60,531 bases of DNA from a virus. The position numbers were made by a program, and so were the translations under genes. Below are positions 2,732-55,540 of this stretch, piece after piece (within the stretch, counting starts at the first letter, position 1; each line of letters starts with the position of its first letter). The stretch covers positions 1 to 60,531 of the IMG/VR virus record IMGVR_UViG_3300046004_001101; one strand, 5' to 3'. The notes beneath the pieces were generated by a model. The model was given only the letters and a program-made list of their open reading frames with translations, was not told the DNA's origin and did no database searches.

Positions 2732-3927
2732 GTAATGTTGCTATTGCTTATCCTAATCGCTTGCTCGAATTAAAGAAACTTCACCAAGTAACTTGGACGG
2801 ATAATTCTAACCTACCTTTAAGTAACATTACAACCAATATCTTAGCTGAAACTGCTCGTACTTCTGATTTTGGCAGCTTATCCGCTAAGAAAGTATCTTT
2901 CGGTGTTTCACTTGCTAACTTACCATATCGTACTTTCGGTGCAGTTGGTTTAATTAACCACAATTTATCAACCTCTGCAAAAGTTAAGTTTTCAGTTTTC
3001 AACGAACCTCCTATTGAATATAGTAACACACCAGCAGAAATCAATGGTACTAACACCGTTACGCTAACATTAAAATCATCTGTACCGACTATTGCAACAG
3101 GAACAAAATTAAAGTTTTATGCGTGCAGTTCCGACAAAAATGATTATATATCAGGTTCATATTTTTATGCAACTGTGGTGTCACATTCAGGTACAAGTTT
3201 AACAGTTAGTCGTACTGGTAATTATGTTAATAACGGTATTTTAACGACGTACAACGTCTGGTATGTAGGATACGGTCAACAATCGGGTAAAACTGAATCG
3301 TTTGTGTTGAATGCACCACAGTGGTTTAATGTGTGGAAACGAATTAAGCCAAGCGATTCGCCACAATTAACATGGCGGTCAACCAACTTGTGGCGTGGAA
3401 CTATCGAAGAAGAACAACGATTGTCATTCACAAAGATTCATATTTCATTTTTGAAAGATGAATTCACGGGCTACCAGCCCGTAGGAACACATTTGCATAT
3501 TGATTTAGATGATTCAAATGAAGCATCAAATCCTGATTTATTTATTGAATTAGGACGTTTGTTTATCGGTCAATATACACAACCTACAATCAATCCTGAA
3601 TACGGTGCAATTACACATGGATTTCAAGATAATTCTGAAATCAGCATTTCTAATTCAGGTACAGAGTTCTTCTATGAGAAACAAAAAGCGCGTACTGTGG
3701 ATGTACAGTGGAATTATCTAACAGAAGATGAAGCGTTCGGTGGCATTTATGAAGCTAGTCGTTCACAAGGTATCACAAGAGAAGTGCTTTATGCTTACGA
3801 TGTAGATGATACAGGTGCATATCAATATGCTAGAAGTTTCATAGGTCGTTTTACACAATTAAACCCGATAACTCAACCGAATGTTGGTTTATACGGTTCT
3901 TCAATTAACATTAAGGAGTTATTATGA
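2728..3927 (+). CDS. Tail tip-associated structural protein
   Basis: 399 residues, beginning in an ATGA overlap with the preceding tail gene and ending in an overlap with the fibre gene, so it belongs to the same translational unit. Composition is beta-rich with many Thr, Ser and Asn and no signal peptide or membrane segment, as expected of a structural component between the tail hub and the fibre. No catalytic motif is recognised. Function is inferred from position only; it could equally be a fibre-attachment protein. Confidence 0.6.
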   Translation: MSNVAIAYPNRLLELKKLHQVTWTDNSNLPLSNITTNILAETARTSDFGSLSAKKVSFGVSLANLPYRTFGAVGLINHNLSTSAKVKFSVFNEPPIEYSNTPAEINGTNTVTLTLKSSVPTIATGTKLKFYACSSDKNDYISGSYFYATVVSHSGTSLTVSRTGNYVNNGILTTYNVWYVGYGQQSGKTESFVLNAPQWFNVWKRIKPSDSPQLTWRSTNLWRGTIEEEQRLSFTKIHISFLKDEFTGYQPVGTHLHIDLDDSNEASNPDLFIELGRLFIGQYTQPTINPEYGAITHGFQDNSEISISNSGTEFFYEKQKARTVDVQWNYLTEDEAFGGIYEASRSQGITREVLYAYDVDDTGAYQYARSFIGRFTQLNPITQPNVGLYGSSINIKELL

Positions 3928-5474: not shown

Positions 5475-5510
5475 TGAATAATATAACACTCTCGTACTGA
5501 ACCTGACAAT

Positions 5511-6027: not shown

Positions 6028-6156
6028 CTAAATGAACATTACTAAGACTAATGTGACCCATGACCAACCACTAATGTGGTCAAATAATTTAACGAAGTAC
6101 GAATCTTCTTTTTCATGTTCACACGCGCCTTGTACGAAGTAATTTGGATATGTCAT
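6028..6156 (-). CDS. Small protein with C-terminal membrane segment, possible lysis accessory
   Basis: 42 residues starting MTYPNYFVQGACEHEKED and ending in a hydrophobic stretch (WSWVTLVLVMFI). An AGAGAA site precedes the start, and the stop codon overlaps the ribosome site of the downstream endolysin, so the two are translationally linked. A single C-terminal transmembrane segment next to a lysozyme is compatible with a holin, antiholin or spanin-like role, but the sequence itself is not recognised. Confidence 0.5.
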   Translation of the reverse strand: MTYPNYFVQGACEHEKEDSYFVKLFDHISGWSWVTLVLVMFI

Positions 6157-6200
6157 AATTTTCTCTATTGTTTAGAAGTTGTTAGTGTAACAGACTTTTC

Positions 6201-6575
6201 TTAAAATAAACTTAATTGTTGTTTTTCATTAGTTTCTAATAAGTAAATTGGAATCCTCTTTTTCTTTGCAATATCAATCATGTGCTTCGTACCTTTACTC
6301 TCACCATCCCAAATACACACTAATTGTTCCGCATAGTCAGCCATTTCTTGATTACGAATGTAACCAGCGGATTTACCGTATTCATTCCAATTAGCAGGAA
6401 ATCGTTTAATCGGAATATCCCATCTATTACCCCACCATTCTCCATGATAATCCACTCCTTTTGCTGTACCTGACACGACTTCTGTGATTTCAACACCTAA
6501 TAATCTAAGTTCTGAAAGATACTCAATTGTTGTTTCAAAATCAATAGTTCGTGAACCTGCTATAATTGTTTTCAT
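6201..6575 (-). CDS. DUF2493 / SLOG-like Rossmann-fold protein
   Basis: 124 residues: MKTIIAGSRTIDF, then VVSGTAKGVDYHGEWWG, then GYIRNQEMADYAEQLVCIWDGESKGTKHMI split across the middle. This is the pattern of DUF2493 proteins of the DprA/LOG-like (SLOG) fold, with the SGTAKGVD nucleotide-binding loop and the RNxxM...DG.SKGT block. Such proteins are common in phages; the ligand is unknown. Start is preceded by TAGGAGAA. A stem-loop lies just upstream of that site. Confidence 0.8.
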   Translation of the reverse strand: MKTIIAGSRTIDFETTIEYLSELRLLGVEITEVVSGTAKGVDYHGEWWGNRWDIPIKRFPANWNEYGKSAGYIRNQEMADYAEQLVCIWDGESKGTKHMIDIAKKKRIPIYLLETNEKQQLSLF

Positions 6576-6814: not shown

Positions 6815-7531
6815 TTAAGAATGTAAACGTAATAAATCTTTTTGAAAACGCGAACTAAACTTTTTATCGAATAATCGCTGCAATCTTGTTTTGCGAGTAT
6901 CTCTATCATAATCGCCTTCTTCCAACATCAATGTGTTAGCGTTCTGTAAAAAAGCAACTGCTTCTAATTCTAAAGGACTTAGATAATCACGAATAGATGA
7001 TTCATGTAAAGGAATACTGTTTCGATGTTTATATCCTTGTGCTGTTAATCCTAACACAATTTCATTAAGTATATCAAACTCTCTAGCATGGTCATACATA
7101 CTGATTTCTTTTTCATTCTCGATAGCACAATCATCAAAAGCGTCTAACATTGGATATGCTTCTTCTCTTGCAATCTGACGATGAATATATTTCTGGTTAG
7201 CTTGATTCTGACTTTCTCTCAACTTATCTTCGCACTTAATAAAGTAATCTCGATATTCATGAGCTTTCTTAGTTTTAGCCATCATAGCTAAATGTTTAGC
7301 AAAGTTTAAACTTATAGCAAATTCGTTGGTTTCATTGCCGTTCGTCACAATGACGAACCCTAACCAATCTCTATTTTCTAAGAAAAATTCATTATTAACA
7401 ATGTTCTTTTCAGACCATCTTTTCCAATTAGATTTATCTAAATCTAAACCCTCATATAACTCTTTAGCTGATACACTTTGTACATAAGAATCACTTAAAC
7501 GATTCATAGTAACTGAAATTAACTCTTTCAT
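6815..7531 (-). CDS. AntA/AntB-type phage antirepressor
   Basis: 238 residues. Residues about 20-105 form an AntA/AntB domain: VSAKELYEGLDLDKSNWKRW, NNEFFLENRDWLGF, then EFAISLNFAKHLAMMAKT and KAHEYRDYFIKCEDKL. Proteins with this domain counteract repressors in P1-like and lambdoid phages. The C-terminal 120 residues carry a different domain (LNEIVLGLTAQGYKHRN..., IRDYLSPLELEAVAFLQ) typical of antirepressor C-terminal partners. It has its own promoter (7660-7688) and a long structured leader. A second AntA/AntB protein is encoded rightward at 50635. Confidence 0.85.
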   Translation of the reverse strand: MKELISVTMNRLSDSYVQSVSAKELYEGLDLDKSNWKRWSEKNIVNNEFFLENRDWLGFVIVTNGNETNEFAISLNFAKHLAMMAKTKKAHEYRDYFIKCEDKLRESQNQANQKYIHRQIAREEAYPMLDAFDDCAIENEKEISMYDHAREFDILNEIVLGLTAQGYKHRNSIPLHESSIRDYLSPLELEAVAFLQNANTLMLEEGDYDRDTRKTRLQRLFDKKFSSRFQKDLLRLHS

Positions 7532-39055: not shown

Positions 39056-40423
39056 TTACATCGTCATAACTATATGGTTCTTAGCCCGTGAAAACGCGAC
39101 ATAGAGCAACTTCAATGCAGTTTGTAAACCGTTATATCGTTCTGCGCTAAGTATATCACTTACGTTGATAAACACAATATCGTAAGTTGAACCTTGTACA
39201 GAATGTGCAGTGCCACTATAGACTATTTGTGGAGCTGATACGAATTCGTTAATACGTCTAGCGTATTCATAAGCTGGATTACCCATTCTATGTTTTTTAC
39301 ATAGGTTATTCATTTCGGATAATATAGTTTCGTGTTCAAGTAGGTTCTTAGCGACGTTAAATTCGTATTCATCACCTGTACCCAAACATCTAGCGATAAT
39401 TCGATTACTACCTAATTTAAATTCATCCCATAAATTAGTCGTTGAATTGATTTGATACGCATCGATTAGTAGTGGTGGGTTTTCCTTCACATATAAGACT
39501 TCTAATTCACTTCCTATTGGTAAGAGTATTTCATCAGAACCTTCTTTAGCATGCAGTGACGGGTTATATCCGACTAAGGTCTGCATTTCCGTTAAGGCTT
39601 TTCGTAATACGATGATTTCGCCCTGATTGTAGTTAATTCTAGTATCGTAACCTTGTGCTTTTCGTACTGTGTTTCCCATATTGGTACAGGCGCGATTTGT
39701 CCAAGCAATTGCTTTACTGTAATCTGTGTTTTCGGTAGTCATACACATAGAATGAGCAACTAACGCTTGATTGAACGTGTTGTAATCACATTCTGATACT
39801 GATTTTTCTTCTTCTACTACACAAAAGCTAAGAAGTTCTGCTTTAGTTGGTTTGTGGTTATCATCAATCCACTTTCTTGTTTGGATACACAAGTCTAAAA
39901 CACATCCTTTTGTACGTTCAACTTTAGTCAAACGTAACGTCGTAATATCTTTAAATGCAAGTGATTGTACCTCCCCTACAGGGGGAGCTTGATAATCATC
40001 ACCCACAAAGATGATTTTAGTATGTGAACCTTGTTGCGCTAAATCTAATTTGGACAATAATGATTTACCTAACATCGATGATTCGTCAATAATAAGTAAA
40101 TCAAAATCAGACACTTTACTTTTACCTTTCTGCTCTAATTCAGTGAGGTCTTTATTACTAATTGGTACTAATCCAAGTAAGGAATGAATTGTTTTGTATT
40201 CTACGGTAGGGTATTCGATACTGGATTTAATAACGCGAAGTGAGCGATGTGTAGGCGCACAGACGCATACGGTATGTGAATGTTGTATTTTACCTAATAG
40301 TTGGTTAATAACGGTAGTCTTACCTACGCCACCTCCACCAACTAAAGCGATTCTATTCGCGTATCCTGATAAGAAATCGGTTAGTTTATCTAACACGTAT
40401 AATTGGTCGTTATTTAAGTTCAT
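39056..40423 (-). CDS. Dda/RecD2-like SF1B helicase
   Basis: 455 residues. Motif I VGGGGVGKTTV (28-38, Lys35), Ia CVCAPTHRSLRVI, II LLIIDESSMLG, III FVGDDYQAPPV, VI/C-terminal VQGSTYDIVFINVSD and YVAFSRAKNHIVM. Layout and length fit T4 Dda-type 5'-3' DNA helicases used at replication starts and forks. A 13-bp stem-loop lies before its ribosome site. Confidence 0.92.
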   Translation of the reverse strand: MNLNNDQLYVLDKLTDFLSGYANRIALVGGGGVGKTTVINQLLGKIQHSHTVCVCAPTHRSLRVIKSSIEYPTVEYKTIHSLLGLVPISNKDLTELEQKGKSKVSDFDLLIIDESSMLGKSLLSKLDLAQQGSHTKIIFVGDDYQAPPVGEVQSLAFKDITTLRLTKVERTKGCVLDLCIQTRKWIDDNHKPTKAELLSFCVVEEEKSVSECDYNTFNQALVAHSMCMTTENTDYSKAIAWTNRACTNMGNTVRKAQGYDTRINYNQGEIIVLRKALTEMQTLVGYNPSLHAKEGSDEILLPIGSELEVLYVKENPPLLIDAYQINSTTNLWDEFKLGSNRIIARCLGTGDEYEFNVAKNLLEHETILSEMNNLCKKHRMGNPAYEYARRINEFVSAPQIVYSGTAHSVQGSTYDIVFINVSDILSAERYNGLQTALKLLYVAFSRAKNHIVMTM

Positions 40424-40457
40424 TGTTGTTCTCCAGTTAGTTTTATTTATTTTGTAA

Positions 40458-40489
40458 ATTCAATACACCGTGTTATCGGTGTATTGAAT
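40458..40489 (-). promoter_or_regulatory. 13-bp stem-loop between primase and helicase genes
   Basis: Perfect arms ATTCAATACACCG / CGGTGTATTGAAT with loop of six. No U tract on the minus strand; placed after the primase gene and before the helicase ribosome site. Confidence 0.6.
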
Positions 40490-40502
40490 CATATTCAAGT
40501 GG

Positions 40503-43142
40503 CTATATCGTAAGCGACGCTTGAATATCGGCTAGTTTATCGACGTATTTCGCTTCAAGCAACTGATAATACACGCCACGAATAGTTCGACCTGTATGTT
40601 TAGCGACGAGTTCTTTCGCGGAATCCGTTAGTACCGCAATTTCACCGTTCTTAACGGCACTGTCTAAGATAAGTTCTAAGGTTTTGATGTTCGACATCTG
40701 ACCAATTTTAAACGAATTACCCTGTAAGCGTTGTGTCATAAGACTGCGTGGGAAAATACCTAAGTCTAATAAATGACCGTAGTTCTTAGCGGTTTTATCG
40801 CGTTCTTTTGGGTGTTTAACGAGTTTGTAGATTAACGCCATGACACGACGTTTACAATTCTGTTCAGACACACCTACCGAACCATCGCGCAGCTTATTTG
40901 CCATGTTGAATACATCGCGCATGACTAGATTACGCGCCCATTGGAAATCTTCCATTGAGATAGACGGGTCACCTAAGTTACGGGTAAAGGCGAGTAATGA
41001 CGCGATAACCATGACCTTTAAGTAAGCACGTCCGTAGATTTGACGATAACCTTCATCTTTTGATGTATTGAATTTCAACGTTAAATAGTTTTCTAATCTA
41101 TCCGCTTCTTCAAATACTAAAGGGTCATCGAGTTTTACTTCAACGGTATCTTTACGGTTGTATAACGATGTGACCTGTTGAATTAAGTAACCTAAGTCAT
41201 CAATTACATTTTTAGGGACTTGTACTGTATGTGCAAACTTATCGGATTTATGCTTAATGGTACTGTAATGCTCCAAGATGATGAATCGTGATAGAAAGCC
41301 ACCTGAACACATTTCTTCAGTGATACCTTCATAGAAGTCAGGTACAGTATCGCCGATTAACGAGAAGGCGGGACTTTCCATACTGCCGCGATTATTTTCT
41401 GAATTCGCGTGTTGCGAACCGCCGTACTGACTATTCAATTTATTCTTCGTTACTGCATCTAAAAGTTCCGCTTTTAAACCACCCATTGCGCCATCTTTAC
41501 CTTGTTTCATTTGTTCAATCAACTGTGCAAATTCAGGTAGCGTTGCACCGATAGAACCGTATTCAGAATTCGACATCAATTGTCGTAAAGCCCCACCCGA
41601 CGATATTTTATCAAAACAAAAAAACTTATCGCCACCAACAGGCGCGGTAGCTTTAGCAATAGCCGATAAAGTAGACGAACAGGTTTCTTTACCCATTGTC
41701 GAATTAGCGACCACAATAATAGCTAAGTTTAACGATGAACCTTTAAAGCGTACCTGACGACCCGCTATTGCCGATATACACACTAAGGCAGCAGCGATAT
41801 GCGCTACTTTGAGTTTGTGTGGTGCAGATGCCATCGAGTATTTAGCGATTTCACCGATTAAGCCAGATGGAAACGGAATATCTTTGAATGCTTCATTCGC
41901 TTCTTCGTATTCATTTTCAATAGCGGTCAAATCTACGTCGTCTTCGCTGGTACAGTCAGCCATCGCTAACTTTTCATTTTCAATGCGTTTATCGAAGATT
42001 TCTTTCTGTTTTTCATAATACATATTTACAACATTCTCCACATAGGTGTTTACATGAGTCATATTTAATTCCGACCTAATAATCGTTAGGCAGCGATTGA
42101 TATGATAATCGTTTTTTGCGTATTTATCGCGTAACGATAACGGCGCACTTTTAAATATCCGTTTTGCTTGTTCATTTGATTTCGTGAATCGACACACAAT
42201 GTTAAAGTACGCTAACACAGCTTCAGATGCAGACGGATAATGTGTTGTTTCCCAATCAGTATTATTGTTAAAGGTTCTAATGTGTGAAAACTTATCTGCA
42301 AAGGCTGAATCTAAGATGTTATCCACTACTTCGTCGTCAGATAAATTGCTCGGAACTTCAGCTAATTCCGATATGATTTCTTCTTCTTCATTATAACCTA
42401 ACTGTGCTAATAAAGCAGTTACTTGCGCTTCTCGATAGCCGATAGGGTCATTGATAGACTTAGCTAGGGCGTTACTTCTAGGTAATTTGTATTCTTCGAC
42501 TACGTCGATTACTTCTTCTGTTGAATCATCACCACTGGACGTAATTGTTGACACGCGATTACCCGTTAAGAGCATAAAACGGTCTTTGTAAGAATAGATT
42601 TCGATACCAAACTTACGAAAGTTCTTAGCGATGAGTTTTTCCGTCTTAATAATGATGTGATAACCTTCACCTGATTTCGATAATTCCGTGTAAGAATCGA
42701 AAGCCTTAATGATTTGATGAAAACCTTTTAAGCGGGTCTGTTTATCGGCTTCAGGTAATCCTTTCGCATCAAGGTCGATAACCGCTAAATGGTCGGCAGT
42801 AGTCAGGACAATGCCTAAATCATAGCCGTATTTTTCGTTGAATGAATCCACCATAACGTAGGGTAAGGTATCGTGACCCATACGCTTATTGTAGCGTTGC
42901 AACATATCTGAATCGGTCACAATATGGGGGATTTTACCGTCAGGTTGACCTTCTTCATCAGCCGCTAATAGCCAGATAGAAGACTGTTTAAGTTCGTTAG
43001 GAATGTAAATTAAGTTGCGTTCTTTTGTACCTTTAAATGAAATAGGTTGAAACACAGTTGGGACGTATTCGTAGTCGTTGTATTCTGGTGCATCATCGTA
43101 GTTGGTTTGTGTAATTTGTGTAGTATTGTATTGTGATGTCAT
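40503..43142 (-). CDS. PrimPol-DUF3987 primase-helicase
   Basis: 879 residues. The N-terminal part fits an archaeo-eukaryotic primase/PrimPol domain: AVIDLDAKG (Asp123, Asp125), SKSGEGYHII (His162) and EIYSYKDRFMLLTGNR (181-196). The C-terminal half is a DUF3987 ATPase region: AHIAAALVCISAIAGRQVRF, then VVANSTMGKETCSS, where the P-loop has Glu instead of Ser/Thr after GK (Lys485), and LPEFAQLIEQMKQG. Likely makes primers and unwinds DNA for the phage polymerase. First replication gene after the control region. Confidence 0.85.
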   Translation of the reverse strand: MTSQYNTTQITQTNYDDAPEYNDYEYVPTVFQPISFKGTKERNLIYIPNELKQSSIWLLAADEEGQPDGKIPHIVTDSDMLQRYNKRMGHDTLPYVMVDSFNEKYGYDLGIVLTTADHLAVIDLDAKGLPEADKQTRLKGFHQIIKAFDSYTELSKSGEGYHIIIKTEKLIAKNFRKFGIEIYSYKDRFMLLTGNRVSTITSSGDDSTEEVIDVVEEYKLPRSNALAKSINDPIGYREAQVTALLAQLGYNEEEEIISELAEVPSNLSDDEVVDNILDSAFADKFSHIRTFNNNTDWETTHYPSASEAVLAYFNIVCRFTKSNEQAKRIFKSAPLSLRDKYAKNDYHINRCLTIIRSELNMTHVNTYVENVVNMYYEKQKEIFDKRIENEKLAMADCTSEDDVDLTAIENEYEEANEAFKDIPFPSGLIGEIAKYSMASAPHKLKVAHIAAALVCISAIAGRQVRFKGSSLNLAIIVVANSTMGKETCSSTLSAIAKATAPVGGDKFFCFDKISSGGALRQLMSNSEYGSIGATLPEFAQLIEQMKQGKDGAMGGLKAELLDAVTKNKLNSQYGGSQHANSENNRGSMESPAFSLIGDTVPDFYEGITEEMCSGGFLSRFIILEHYSTIKHKSDKFAHTVQVPKNVIDDLGYLIQQVTSLYNRKDTVEVKLDDPLVFEEADRLENYLTLKFNTSKDEGYRQIYGRAYLKVMVIASLLAFTRNLGDPSISMEDFQWARNLVMRDVFNMANKLRDGSVGVSEQNCKRRVMALIYKLVKHPKERDKTAKNYGHLLDLGIFPRSLMTQRLQGNSFKIGQMSNIKTLELILDSAVKNGEIAVLTDSAKELVAKHTGRTIRGVYYQLLEAKYVDKLADIQASLTI

Positions 43143-43184
43143 GTTTTAGATTTCCTTATTGTGTAGGTTAATTAGAATAACACA

Positions 43185-44327
43185 TTAAAACGAGTTGAAG
43201 CTATTTGCGGCTTTAAAGATGAATCCGTAAGACTGTGTTAAAACAGATTTCATTGTGCTTTGTGGTGCATTCAAGGTTTTAGATGATAGTTTAAAGTCGT
43301 GTGTGGCTTTAAACTTAGGTAATAGTGAAATTAAGTTGTCTAATTCACGAAGGGTAAGTGACCAGATTGATGAATCTAACGGTTTAATGTTAGCGAACAC
43401 ATTATCTTTGCCGATAGAGCTGAATCTAGCTGTTAGATAGTTGACTAATAATCCGCCATTACAAGGTAAGAATGTTTCACACATCATGGTGTTATCACAG
43501 TGGGTATTAAGCATCAAAATAAGCTCTTTATTGAACGTAGCAATATGTTTCTCGATAGCATCGAAGGTTTGGGTTGTGTATGAACCTGAATCACGAATAG
43601 CGGCGTAATTATGCACATAATGTTCATAGGTTGTTTTAGGTAATCCTAATTCATGACTTATTAAATCATTAATACTTCTATCTGCGAACACAGTAATAGA
43701 TGAAGGGAATGTAGCCGCTAGTAATGTGTATAGGTTAGCATTTGAATCTTCATGTAGTGTAAATGTAGGTGTGGTAGTAACTGTAGACGTAGCTAAAGAC
43801 CCTACCCCGTCAGTTATTTTGAAATCTTGAAATTCTATGTGGGAAATTTTTGATTCGTTATCTGACACATTAGATGAAGTCATCATTTGATTATTCAGAA
43901 TTTTTCTAATCTGTTCTTTCAATGAGGTAACTTCGTTTTCTAGTGTGCTAACTTTGGAGGTTAATTCAGACACATTCATGACATCAGTAAGATTAACGTC
44001 GTTAATAAATTGGGTGATGAGTTCAAGTCTATCGTCATCGAAGATAGTCGCTTTACAGAAGTTCGCGAGCTTAGTTGATGATGCTTCGCCATGATACTTA
44101 ATGTATAAGTCTAGGAAGTGTGTCATTACACCATTAGCTGAATAGTTATTACCATGTTGAATAGCGGTGAATAAGTCACGAACAGGTGTTGATACTCGAA
44201 CACTAAGTCTGTCGGTAGCTTCTATTGTGGTGATGTTTGGTTCAGTAGGTGAGTTATTAGAATTATTAGAGTTAGGTTTGGTTTTATCCACATTAGTATG
44301 TGTTGGAGATGATGCTTTAGAAGCCAT
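43185..44327 (-). CDS. Putative RHH DNA-binding protein with coiled coil
   Basis: 380 residues. After a low-complexity Ser/Asn/Pro tail (1-35), residues about 40-80 (DRLSVRVSTPVRDLFTAIQH, YSANGVMTHFLDLYIKY) have the strand-helix-helix pattern of ribbon-helix-helix proteins. A coiled coil follows (about 120-145), then a 220-residue helical domain of unknown type. First gene of the leftward arm, facing the iteron array across its promoter; a role in origin binding or switch control is inferred. Confidence 0.6.
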   Translation of the reverse strand: MASKASSPTHTNVDKTKPNSNNSNNSPTEPNITTIEATDRLSVRVSTPVRDLFTAIQHGNNYSANGVMTHFLDLYIKYHGEASSTKLANFCKATIFDDDRLELITQFINDVNLTDVMNVSELTSKVSTLENEVTSLKEQIRKILNNQMMTSSNVSDNESKISHIEFQDFKITDGVGSLATSTVTTTPTFTLHEDSNANLYTLLAATFPSSITVFADRSINDLISHELGLPKTTYEHYVHNYAAIRDSGSYTTQTFDAIEKHIATFNKELILMLNTHCDNTMMCETFLPCNGGLLVNYLTARFSSIGKDNVFANIKPLDSSIWSLTLRELDNLISLLPKFKATHDFKLSSKTLNAPQSTMKSVLTQSYGFIFKAANSFNSF

Positions 44328-44395
44328 GATTGAGATTCCTTTTGGTTGATATGAATAGGATGAAGTCTATATGAATATCCTGATACAGACACAAT

Positions 44396-44430
44396 ACGGG
44401 TAAGTTGAATAAGTCGTTACCGATATTGTG
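44396..44430 (-). promoter_or_regulatory. Imperfect hairpin in the leftward leader
   Basis: Arms CAATATCGGTAA / TTACCCGTATTG (two mismatches) directly downstream of the main leftward promoter. Possible operator or 5' stem-loop. Confidence 0.4.
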
Positions 44431-44436
44431 TGAGGG

Positions 44437-44465
44437 ATTATAGCTGAGTTGGAGAGATTTGTAAA
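44437..44465 (-). promoter_or_regulatory. Main leftward promoter
   Basis: Minus strand TTTACA, 17-bp spacer, TATAAT. It reads into the RHH/coiled-coil gene and the primase gene, with a leader of about 100 bases. Confidence 0.8.
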
Positions 44466-44709
44466 GTGGAGATGTTAGTGTGAGGATAAAAGTGGTTAAG
44501 TTATGTGCGTAAGTACATGATTTTAAATAGGAAAATCATAAGTCATTGATTTATTTCGTCCATGATTGATTTATAAGGAGTTTTTTATTTTGTCTGACAT
44601 GAAATAATTTTAGTGTTGGTTGAAAGGTAGATTATATAAGGGTTTTGGTTGATTTATGAAGTTTTAATTTTTTTCTTATAGGGTTTTTTATTTTTGATGT
44701 TAATTTGGA
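44466..44709. other. AT-rich intergenic region without gene
   Basis: No credible frame. Contains TGTCTGACA (44591-44599), which recurs in the centre of the palindrome at 44710-44742, and T-rich tracts. Nothing else stands out. Confidence 0.5.
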
Positions 44710-44742
44710 AATTTGTACATTTGTCTGACAAATGTACAAATT
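44710..44742. repeat. 33-bp near-perfect palindrome
   Basis: 16-bp arms AATTTGTACATTTGTC / GACAAATGTACAAATT around one T. Its centre is TGTCTGACA. Likely a dimer-binding operator or an origin element in the divergent control region. Confidence 0.8.
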
Positions 44743-44795
44743 AACAATTACCCATTTACCCTAAATACCCCCTTTTATCAGAAGAAAAAACATGG

Positions 44796-44845
44796 ATTAT
44801 AATATATATATATATTATTAATATATATTATTATAATAATCAATT
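44796..44845. other. AT-only tract, possible DNA-unwinding element
   Basis: About 50 bases almost entirely of A and T, with alternating TA repeats, about 190 bp from the iteron array. Such tracts melt readily and occur at replication origins. Confidence 0.5.
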
Positions 44846-45029
44846 ACTTACATTTTATTTTCACTTAATTTCAACTTTTTTACTTAGTACGAAAAATTCA
44901 CCTAAGTCATTGATTTTATTATACTTGAATTTTACAAAGGGTAACTTTTATAAGCTGTTGATTTATAAGAAAATTATTTTTTGAAAAAAATCAAAAAAGT
45001 TAAGTTGTTGTTTTTGTTACATTTTTAAA

Positions 45030-45292
45030 GGTATATCTTGAAGTATATTTCGATATACTTGACGGTATATTTCGATATACTTTTTATCCTAATTTAGTAT
45101 ATCTAGTGACCTAATTTAGATATACCGTGTATCCTTATTTGATATACCTAGTTACCAAATTTGATATACCTTCAGATATACCTAGATAAACCAAGTACCC
45201 CGCTTTTGATATACTAATTATATCAAGAAGATATACCTAAAGGTATATTTAGATATACTATTGAATATAATTATTTTACCTTTAGGTATATC
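45030..45292. repeat. Iteron array, GATATACY at 22-bp period
   Basis: The 8-mer GATATACC/T (or its reverse complement) starts at 45030(rev), 45052, 45074, 45096(rev), 45119, 45141, 45163, 45185 (GATAAACC), 45208, 45230 and 45252: a 22-23 bp ladder of eleven sites, two helical turns apart. Extra sites lie at 45042(rev), 45064(rev), 45175, 45241(rev) and 45285(rev). The 18-mer GTATATTTCGATATACTT is repeated exactly at 45043 and 45065. Operator array and/or origin iterons. Confidence 0.88.
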
Positions 45293-45298
45293 TTTTCG

Positions 45299-45326
45299 TT
45301 AACATCCTTTGTTTTATTGGTATAAT
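45299..45326 (+). promoter_or_regulatory. Rightward promoter next to the iterons
   Basis: TTAACA, 16-bp spacer ending TTGG, TATAAT. The last iteron (45285-45292) abuts its -35 box, so array binding should control it. Confidence 0.8.
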
Positions 45327-45356
45327 GACATTTCTTTCAACCAACTAGGAGTTTTT

Positions 45357-50634: not shown

Positions 50635-51228
50635 ATGAAATTATCAGTACAAACCTCAGCTTTACCATCATTTATCACGTCTATTACAGACAACTTATCC
50701 ACCCCTTGTATTAACGCTCGTGATTTACACCACTTCTTAGATTCAAAACGTAAATTTGCTGATTGGATTAAATATCGAATCGACCAATATGACTTCGTTG
50801 AGGGTGTGGATTATTCCGTTCACAAAAATGTGAACACTACTATGAAAGGGTTTAATGAATATATTGACTACATTGTGTCACCTCACATGGCTAAAGAACT
50901 TGGTATGTTAGAAAACAACGAGCGAGGTAAGTCTATCCGTAAATACTTCATCCAATGTGAGCAAAATTTAATTAACTATCTACAGGTACAAAACAACATG
51001 AAAGAAAAACTATTACAACAACCTAATAGAGTTGTATTAAAACGTAACACGATTAAAGACCTATCATACCTACTAGGTGTGCCTGAATTTAAACTAAACA
51101 CTGTGTTGTACGATAATGGTTATTGTGATGATACAGGATTTCCGTTAGCGTTAGCTAACCGACACTTCGATTGTGTAGATGATGAAATTAGATGGTCGTT
51201 ACCGCTAATAACGAAGTTATTAAAATAA
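50635..51228 (+). CDS. AntA/AntB-type antirepressor
   Basis: 197 residues. The AntA/AntB core spans about 25-115: CINARDLHHFLDSKRKFADW, IKYRIDQYDFVEGVDYSVHK, YIVSPHMAKELGMLENNERG, KSIRKYFIQCEQNL. The C-terminal 70 residues (RNTIKDLSYLLGVPEFKLNT) form a second helical domain. The start has no good ribosome site, in line with the regulated leader. Together with the leftward copy at 6815 the phage has two such genes. Confidence 0.85.
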   Translation: MKLSVQTSALPSFITSITDNLSTPCINARDLHHFLDSKRKFADWIKYRIDQYDFVEGVDYSVHKNVNTTMKGFNEYIDYIVSPHMAKELGMLENNERGKSIRKYFIQCEQNLINYLQVQNNMKEKLLQQPNRVVLKRNTIKDLSYLLGVPEFKLNTVLYDNGYCDDTGFPLALANRHFDCVDDEIRWSLPLITKLLK

Positions 51229-54865: not shown

Positions 54866-55540
54866 ATGTCAAATACTGATTTAATCACATTAGTTCAATC
54901 TGAGTTTCGCGTAGATTCTCGTCTTTTAGCTACTCAACTAGACCATCGTCATCGTACAATTTACGAATCCATTGTTAAATATAGTAAGGAATTACAAGAA
55001 CTTGGACTGCTCCCAGTTGAATCGGAGTCAGTGAAGGAGGAAGGTAATCGAGGCGCAAAACTTCATAAATTCTATCTTTTAAATGAAGACCAATGTTATT
55101 TTGTATTAACTAATATGCGAAACAACGATAAGGTTGTTAAATTAAAATTAAATTTAGTTAAAGCATTTAGTAATGCTAGAAAACAATTAGCTGAACGAGA
55201 TTTAGCTAGGTTGGAAGGTAAAAAAGTTCGTAGAAGTGAAACTGACGCGATTAAGGATTTGATTGCATACGCTAAAGGCAATGGTTCAAAAACTGCCGAT
55301 AAATGGTTTTACGTCAATCTAACAACTATGACAAATAAAGTCATGGGTGTCGAAGCAGGTCAACGCGACTTTATGGATTCACGTCAGTTACAGTTATTAA
55401 AACTAGCTGAAACAATGATTGAGATTGCAATTCGTGATGGGATGAAAGCTGAATTATCGCATAGCGAAATTTATACTTTGTGTAAAGATAGAGTAAGTGA
55501 CATCATTATCCCTCTACGACAAGATAAATTGTTAAAATAA
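54866..55540 (+). CDS. rha: Rha-family phage regulatory protein
   Basis: 224 residues. N-terminal Rha domain: FRVDSRLLATQLDHRHRTIY, ESIVKYSKELQELG, FYLLNEDQCYFVLTNMRNND, VKLKLNLVKAFSNARKQL. Rha proteins regulate phage growth and are DNA-binding, antirepressor-like. A C-terminal helical domain follows. Own tandem promoters upstream and a stem-loop terminator downstream. Confidence 0.88.
   Translation: MSNTDLITLVQSEFRVDSRLLATQLDHRHRTIYESIVKYSKELQELGLLPVESESVKEEGNRGAKLHKFYLLNEDQCYFVLTNMRNNDKVVKLKLNLVKAFSNARKQLAERDLARLEGKKVRRSETDAIKDLIAYAKGNGSKTADKWFYVNLTTMTNKVMGVEAGQRDFMDSRQLQLLKLAETMIEIAIRDGMKAELSHSEIYTLCKDRVSDIIIPLRQDKLLK

Follow-up and report, generated by a model that had tools for sequence, protein, structure and literature searches.

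A phased iteron array near an AT-only element as a probable replication origin in an uncultured distant relative of the Queuovirinae

In phage lambda, the replication origin belongs to the O/P module, in which iterons and AT-rich DNA are combined with an initiator gene located beside a recruitment function; the entire module is exchanged en bloc among related phages. DnaA boxes are common, albeit not universal, in the vicinity of iterons. Proteins of the ribbon-helix-helix (RHH) type have been described in the roles of repressor, antitoxin, adaptor in relaxosomes and partition systems, and competitor for iterons. The origin of the plasmid pMBL6842 consists of a 44-bp element (89% AT) followed by iterons, which are bound by the RHH antitoxin PrpA, so that the initiator RepB is blocked by competition (PMC7848731). 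The RHH proteins of the ParR type bind repeats of 10, 11, 17, or 20 bp (PMC9426499). The literature searched contained no report of an RHH protein acting as a phage replication initiator and no mapped origin for phages of the Queuovirinae type.

The DNA analyzed here (the window) is a single IMG/VR virus record of 60,531 bases that represents an uncultured phage. Its annotation includes genes of tailed phages (portal, large terminase, and small terminase), genes of nucleotide metabolism (ribonucleotide reductase, ThyX, and dUTPase), and replication genes for a B-family-like DNA polymerase, a primase, a Dda-like helicase, a clamp-like protein, a ligase, and a Sak4-like protein. The phage supplies its own replisome, as shown by the polymerase, the helicases, the clamp-like and Sak4-like proteins, and the ligase. 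The B-type polymerase is up to 43% identical to its Queuovirinae-type homologs, and the primase is 27 to 30% identical to the primases of Seurat, CAjan, yong3, and others; given the low identity of the primase, the phage can be considered only a distant relative of the Queuovirinae. No integrase was detected in the 60.5-kb window; despite that, it carries two genes with AntA-type antirepressor domains and one gene for a Rha-type regulator (positions 50635 to 51228, 6815 to 7531, and 54866 to 55540).

The replication genes run leftward and the packaging and structural genes run rightward from a divergent gap at positions 44328 to 45356. The leftward operon comprises the genes for a 380-aa protein, the primase, and the helicase, in that order, and the rightward operon opens with the genes for an 84-aa protein and then a 142-aa protein (Table 1). 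Three minus-strand genes (39056 to 44327) have a third-codon GC skew opposite to that of most others on this strand (-0.15 to -0.39), a hint that the replication-initiation block was exchanged recently or that replication has an effect here.

Table 1. Features of the divergent gap and its flanking genes (positions in the window)
Feature	Start	End	Strand	Description
Dda-like SF1 helicase	39056	40423	-	PHROG 325, E=4.6e-59
DNA primase/helicase	40503	43142	-	PHROG 3022, E=6.8e-123
380-aa protein	43185	44327	-	RHH-like segment at the N terminus, then a coiled region and a helical C-terminal domain; candidate iteron-binding initiator
Leftward sigma70-like promoter	44437	44465	-	TTTACA-17-TATAAT, 11/12, consensus match only; precedes 380-aa gene and primase
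Palindrome	44710	44742	none	Longest near-perfect palindrome in window, 16-bp arms, 1-nt center; candidate regulator or origin accessory site
AT-only run	44796	44840	none	45 bp, longest in window (next, 24 bp); candidate DNA unwinding element
Iteron array	45030	45292	none	15 sites resembling GATATACY (12 of them exact) on an 11.11-bp ladder with main units of 22 bp; both orientations
Rightward sigma70-like promoter	45299	45326	+	TTAACA-16-TATAAT, 11/12, consensus match only; 6 bp past last iteron
84-aa RHH-like protein	45357	45611	+	First gene after array; fold is a prediction
142-aa protein	45613	46041	+	Two segments judged RHH-like by eye; model of low confidence begins with strand-helix-helix

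The right part of the gap is occupied by an array of GATATACY sites. This octamer is found 17 times in the window, against 4.6 expected and a maximum of 10 in shuffled sequences, and 12 of these copies fall within the array. In a sliding scan of the contig, the best 300-bp stretch contained 16 copies of one 8-mer (with at most one mismatch), compared to 4.25 in shuffles; the next unrelated stretch had 7 copies, making the array the strongest 8-mer cluster of the 60.5 kb. All 15 sites fit an 11.11-bp ladder with residuals of no more than 0.9 bp (Rayleigh R=0.97 at 11.1 bp), a phasing that none of the 1,000 random placements with the same exclusion equaled at any period. The best-filled rungs are the even ones, which are spaced by 22 or 23 bp (45030, 45052, 45074, 45096, 45119, 45141, 45163, 45185, 45208, 45230, and 45252) and include a degenerate site, GATAAACC, at 45185; half-rung sites are found at 45064(-), 45175, 45242(-), and 45285(-). 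Five of the 15 sites, those at 45030, 45064, 45096, 45242, and 45285, are inverted. The initial annotation had described a phased GATATACY array here, with a 22- to 23-bp ladder that included one degenerate site and an 18-mer repeated exactly at 45043 and 45065. The 18-mer and the rung positions are as given there; the number of sites, 12 exact and 15 with one mismatch allowed, had been slightly understated, and the finer period is 11.11 bp.

AT-rich words are common in AT-rich DNA, and Tandem Repeats Finder reported only a modest array at this locus, as would suit a neutral 22-bp minisatellite or a chance repeat. However, the 8-bp core and the 11-bp phase persist across linkers that vary, with sites in both orientations, so the array is not a simple tandem duplication. 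In addition, the shuffles never came near the observed count of GATATACY, and arrays with other words occupy the equivalent place in relatives of this phage (see below), which makes a neutral or chance origin of the repeats extremely improbable.

Two further elements of the same gap, the AT-only run and a palindrome, had not been part of the initial annotation. According to nearest-neighbor energies, the segments of 60, 100, and 200 bp with the lowest stability in the entire window all begin at positions 44796 to 44798, with the AT-only run, which is separated from the array by 190 bp. The second-least-stable 100 bp start at 45203, inside the array. The palindrome, AATTTGTACATTTGTC-T-GACAAATGTACAAATT, separates the AT-only run from the leftward promoter-like site. 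Sites resembling promoters are no more numerous in this region than in shuffles. No DnaA boxes were found in the gap, and their number in the window corresponds to that expected by chance.

Using the primase as a query, 80 loci were fetched from viral contigs, of which 63 non-redundant ones were used for counting low-stability positions. In 42 of the 63, the least stable 100 bp lay within 3 kb upstream of the primase, against 13.9 expected for a uniform distribution, a null model that is generous given that intergenic DNA is AT-rich in general. Most of these low-stability spots are found 1.0 to 1.8 kb upstream of the primase. A generic scan for repeat words was swamped by low-complexity repeats in coding regions and was replaced by tests on low-stability spots and on intergenic gaps. 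Repeat words above the shuffle level were present at 14 of the 64 upstream low-stability spots and at 7 of the 64 control spots (paired Wilcoxon P=0.026), with several of the repeat-bearing control spots lying just 3' of the primase. For intergenic gaps, the contrast between 4 of 135 upstream and 1 of 68 downstream with repeat words was too weak to be of use. Among the relatives, L007 has 10 exact copies of TGGATACA, with 0.6 expected, next to an AT run of 26 bp; L034 has 7 exact copies of TGTGACAC, with 0.45 expected, and an AT run of 29 bp adjoins five of these. The repeat word of L039 is TGTAATAG, and Seurat carries TATAGGG-like words in the AT-rich noncoding gap upstream of its primase. 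Another word, TTGCTAAT/ATTAGCAA, common to some GC-rich relatives, had few exact matches and is not relied on here. Thus, the distant relatives of this phage (Queuovirinae and their kin) have a low-stability and often repeat-bearing gap 1 to 2 kb upstream of the primase, with each lineage using its own word.

The strongest single argument for a co-specific origin/initiator cassette comes from the comparison of L007 and L034. Their DNA is 87 to 97% identical on both sides of a 4.7-kb block (L007 3050 to 7789, L034 5130 to 9871), and a terminase-type protein of 166 aa encoded in the flank shows 99% identity. Inside the block, which includes the AT run, the array, the genes for small and long RHH-like proteins, and the primase, DNA similarity is limited to one 93-bp patch, and protein identity falls to 44% for the small RHH-like protein, 22% for the long one, and 38% for the primase. 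The word of the array differs between the two phages together with these proteins, as would be expected of a co-specific cassette. Since the exchange is seen in a single pair, it represents one event.

Homologs of the 380-aa protein are encoded immediately before the primase in L006, L007, and L034. They share a better-conserved C-terminal domain and have variable N termini that look RHH-like; the searches of viral contigs with the 84-aa or the 380-aa protein alone returned no relatives. Assignment of the flanking proteins to the RHH type, as predicted in the initial annotation, is plausible from a profile comparison, although the Pfam RHH_1 domain (PF01402) had no match anywhere in the window. 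In that comparison, a profile of six candidate segments aligned by hhalign with Arc, CopG, and FitA sequences that were supplied by hand gave a score of 17.1, at a probability of only 12%; 30 column shuffles scored no higher than 11.9. Neither Pfam nor NCBIfam nor PHROGs provided a meaningful family for the 380-, 84-, or 142-aa RHH-like proteins. AlphaFold models had a mean pLDDT of 50 for the 380-aa protein (four sequences) and 52 for the 142-aa protein (single sequence), and Foldseek found no fold matches for these low-confidence models.

The position of the RHH-like genes directly after the array would also suit a cooperative operator, in which the 84- and 142-aa proteins spread over 260 bp and control the rightward promoter, and perhaps also the leftward one, as an early/late switch with no role in replication. 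RHH regulators do bind phased repeats, with ParR proteins as examples (PMC9426499). The initial annotation had the array ending at the -35 box of a rightward promoter; the last site does lie just before this promoter-like box but ends 6 bp upstream of it, and none of the array sites overlaps the -35 or the -10 box. L034 also has a promoter-like site, a weak one (TTGCTA-16-TAAAAT, 9/12, at 5486), that begins 7 bp past the last array site, but the number of such sites is within chance (5 found, 4.2 in shuffles). In L007, the small RHH-like gene has its best promoter-like match (TTGACA-17-TACATT, 3753 to 3781) ~236 bp away from the array, whereas the arrays of L007 and L034 both keep 50 to 80 bp from the AT-only run. 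As an operator alone would leave the AT element and the joint exchange with the primase unexplained, a purely regulatory function of the array appears rather unlikely.

A centromere-like partition site of the ParMRC kind, with an RHH protein as its adaptor, would imply that the phage persists as a plasmid. The ~11-bp phasing of the array resembles the 11-bp repeats of R1 parC (PMC9426499), its repeat length is within the range of such sites (about 10 to 11 bp or 20 bp), and iterons of the Bacillus phage-plasmid B83 adjoin genes for a predicted RHH protein and a ParM-like protein (PMC6669507). However, the window had no ParA-type match (PF13614) in a search with a positive control in 14 of 14 genomes, and no match to actin-like proteins (PF17989 and PF06406), for which the controls were weak or silent, with that for PF06406 giving nothing. 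The absence of a detected integrase from the window, the location of the array at the primase operon, and the exchange of arrays along with the primase in relatives also argue against a partition site, which is therefore a very improbable explanation.

The gap is best interpreted as an iteron-type replication origin of the phage, linked to a co-specific initiator/primase module, with a probability of roughly 0.65. Among the operator, origin, and partition functions considered in the initial annotation, an origin is now favored, with the other two fitting less well, because the minimum of stability in the genome lies by the array, the primase operon is alongside, the position is conserved in relatives, and the array is exchanged en bloc with the primase. 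Observations that weigh against an origin include the array abutting a promoter-like site, the single exchange pair, the presence in L006, the closest relative by primase, of only a small CGTTAC cluster (6156 to 6201) adjoining AT-rich DNA, and the location of the GC-skew minimum at ~40 to 42 kb, away from the array; however, GC skew is mixed with gene direction here and was set aside as evidence on origins. As in iteron-type theta origins, the repeats are phased above chance and adjoin an AT-rich element of low stability. Since the gap has no DnaA boxes and the contig no Rep_3 initiator gene (PF01051, at E<=1), there is no classical plasmid initiator, and, despite having the anatomy of an iteron origin, the gap is not placed in any named origin family.

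In such an origin, a phage protein would bind the iterons cooperatively; the most likely one is the 380-aa RHH-like protein of the primase operon, for which the small RHH-like proteins encoded rightward could act as competitors or modulators. The bound complex could be expected to strain and melt the AT-only element, and the C-terminal domain of the 380-aa protein would then recruit the primase/helicase encoded next door, after which replication would continue with the phage polymerase, clamp, helicases, and ligase. The array, AT element, initiator, and primase would form a single co-specific module in evolution and recombination. A broader suggestion, that this is a clade of phages with an RHH-type initiator, in which an RHH segment is fused to a helical domain recruiting the primase/helicase and origin specificity is swapped as a cassette between near-identical phages, is offered tentatively. 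If the origin assignment is correct, the combination of an AT-only run, lineage-specific iterons, and a primase cassette would predict the location of the origin in many such phages, as well as the genes that carry origin specificity. L007 and L034, in which a change of array type went along with changes of the RHH-like proteins and the primase, could serve as a natural pair for studying the coevolution of initiators and origins, and the ways in which related phages in a common host could evade or take advantage of each other's replication machinery.

Triple GATATACY sites at 22-bp spacing were also found in 11 viral and 36 bacterial contigs, whereas one permuted control word of equal composition gave such triples in a single viral contig. 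These 22-bp-phased arrays (L111 to L121 and L122 to L157) have different linkers and belong to unrelated phages and to Prevotella/Bacteroidetes metagenome-assembled genomes (MAGs). In the MAGs, the copies occupy many intergenic places, and GATATAC often has self-complementary flanks (e.g., AAAAGATATACTCTTTT). In L119 (6305 to 7006), L117 (537 to 1351), and L112 (2103 to 2743), an array with 11-bp inverted half-sites adjoins a gene for a RepL-like initiator; in the unrelated phage L119, the distance is ~135 bp and the RepL-like match scores 23.5 bits, above the Pfam cutoff, an arrangement that speaks for an origin role of the array in the window. A DnaA-box-like TTATCCACA is found beside the array in L112 and L117. 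As the neighboring genes differ among the array-bearing contigs, the idea that GATATAC marks an initiator shared across phages and plasmids was considered but not adopted.

Among the closest counterparts of the gap are the iteron origins of plasmids, such as R6K, P1, F, and pMBL6842, in which phased repeats likewise lie by a short AT-rich element next to a replication gene. In contrast to these plasmids, the phage lacks DnaA boxes in the gap and a Rep_3 gene in the contig, has its own polymerase, and carries repeats that are degenerate beyond the 8-bp core and face both ways. The similarity to PrpA and pMBL6842 would consist in an RHH(-like) protein binding iterons beside an AT-rich element, which for the phage is a proposal. 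The roles would differ as well: PrpA inhibits initiation, whereas the RHH-like protein encoded before the primase is proposed to be the initiator, or the small ones to be modulators. With the ParMRC centromeres of R1, pSK41, and the Clostridium perfringens plasmid pCW3, the phage shares repeats of approximately one or two helical turns and, potentially, an RHH adaptor, but no motor gene was detected and the array is linked to the primase rather than to parM.

Among phages, the lambda origin offers iterons, AT-rich DNA, and en bloc exchange, and has its counterpart of the candidate DNA-binding initiator encoded beside a recruitment gene. Unlike in lambda, the array lies between genes and not inside that of the initiator, the initiator proposed here resembles RHH proteins and has no relation to O, and it is followed by a primase/helicase instead of a helicase loader. 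The Seurat-like phages of the Queuovirinae share an AT-rich, repeat-containing noncoding gap upstream of a homologous primase; their repeat words differ from GATATACY, and a short HTH-like gene precedes the primase where the window has the gene for the RHH-like protein.
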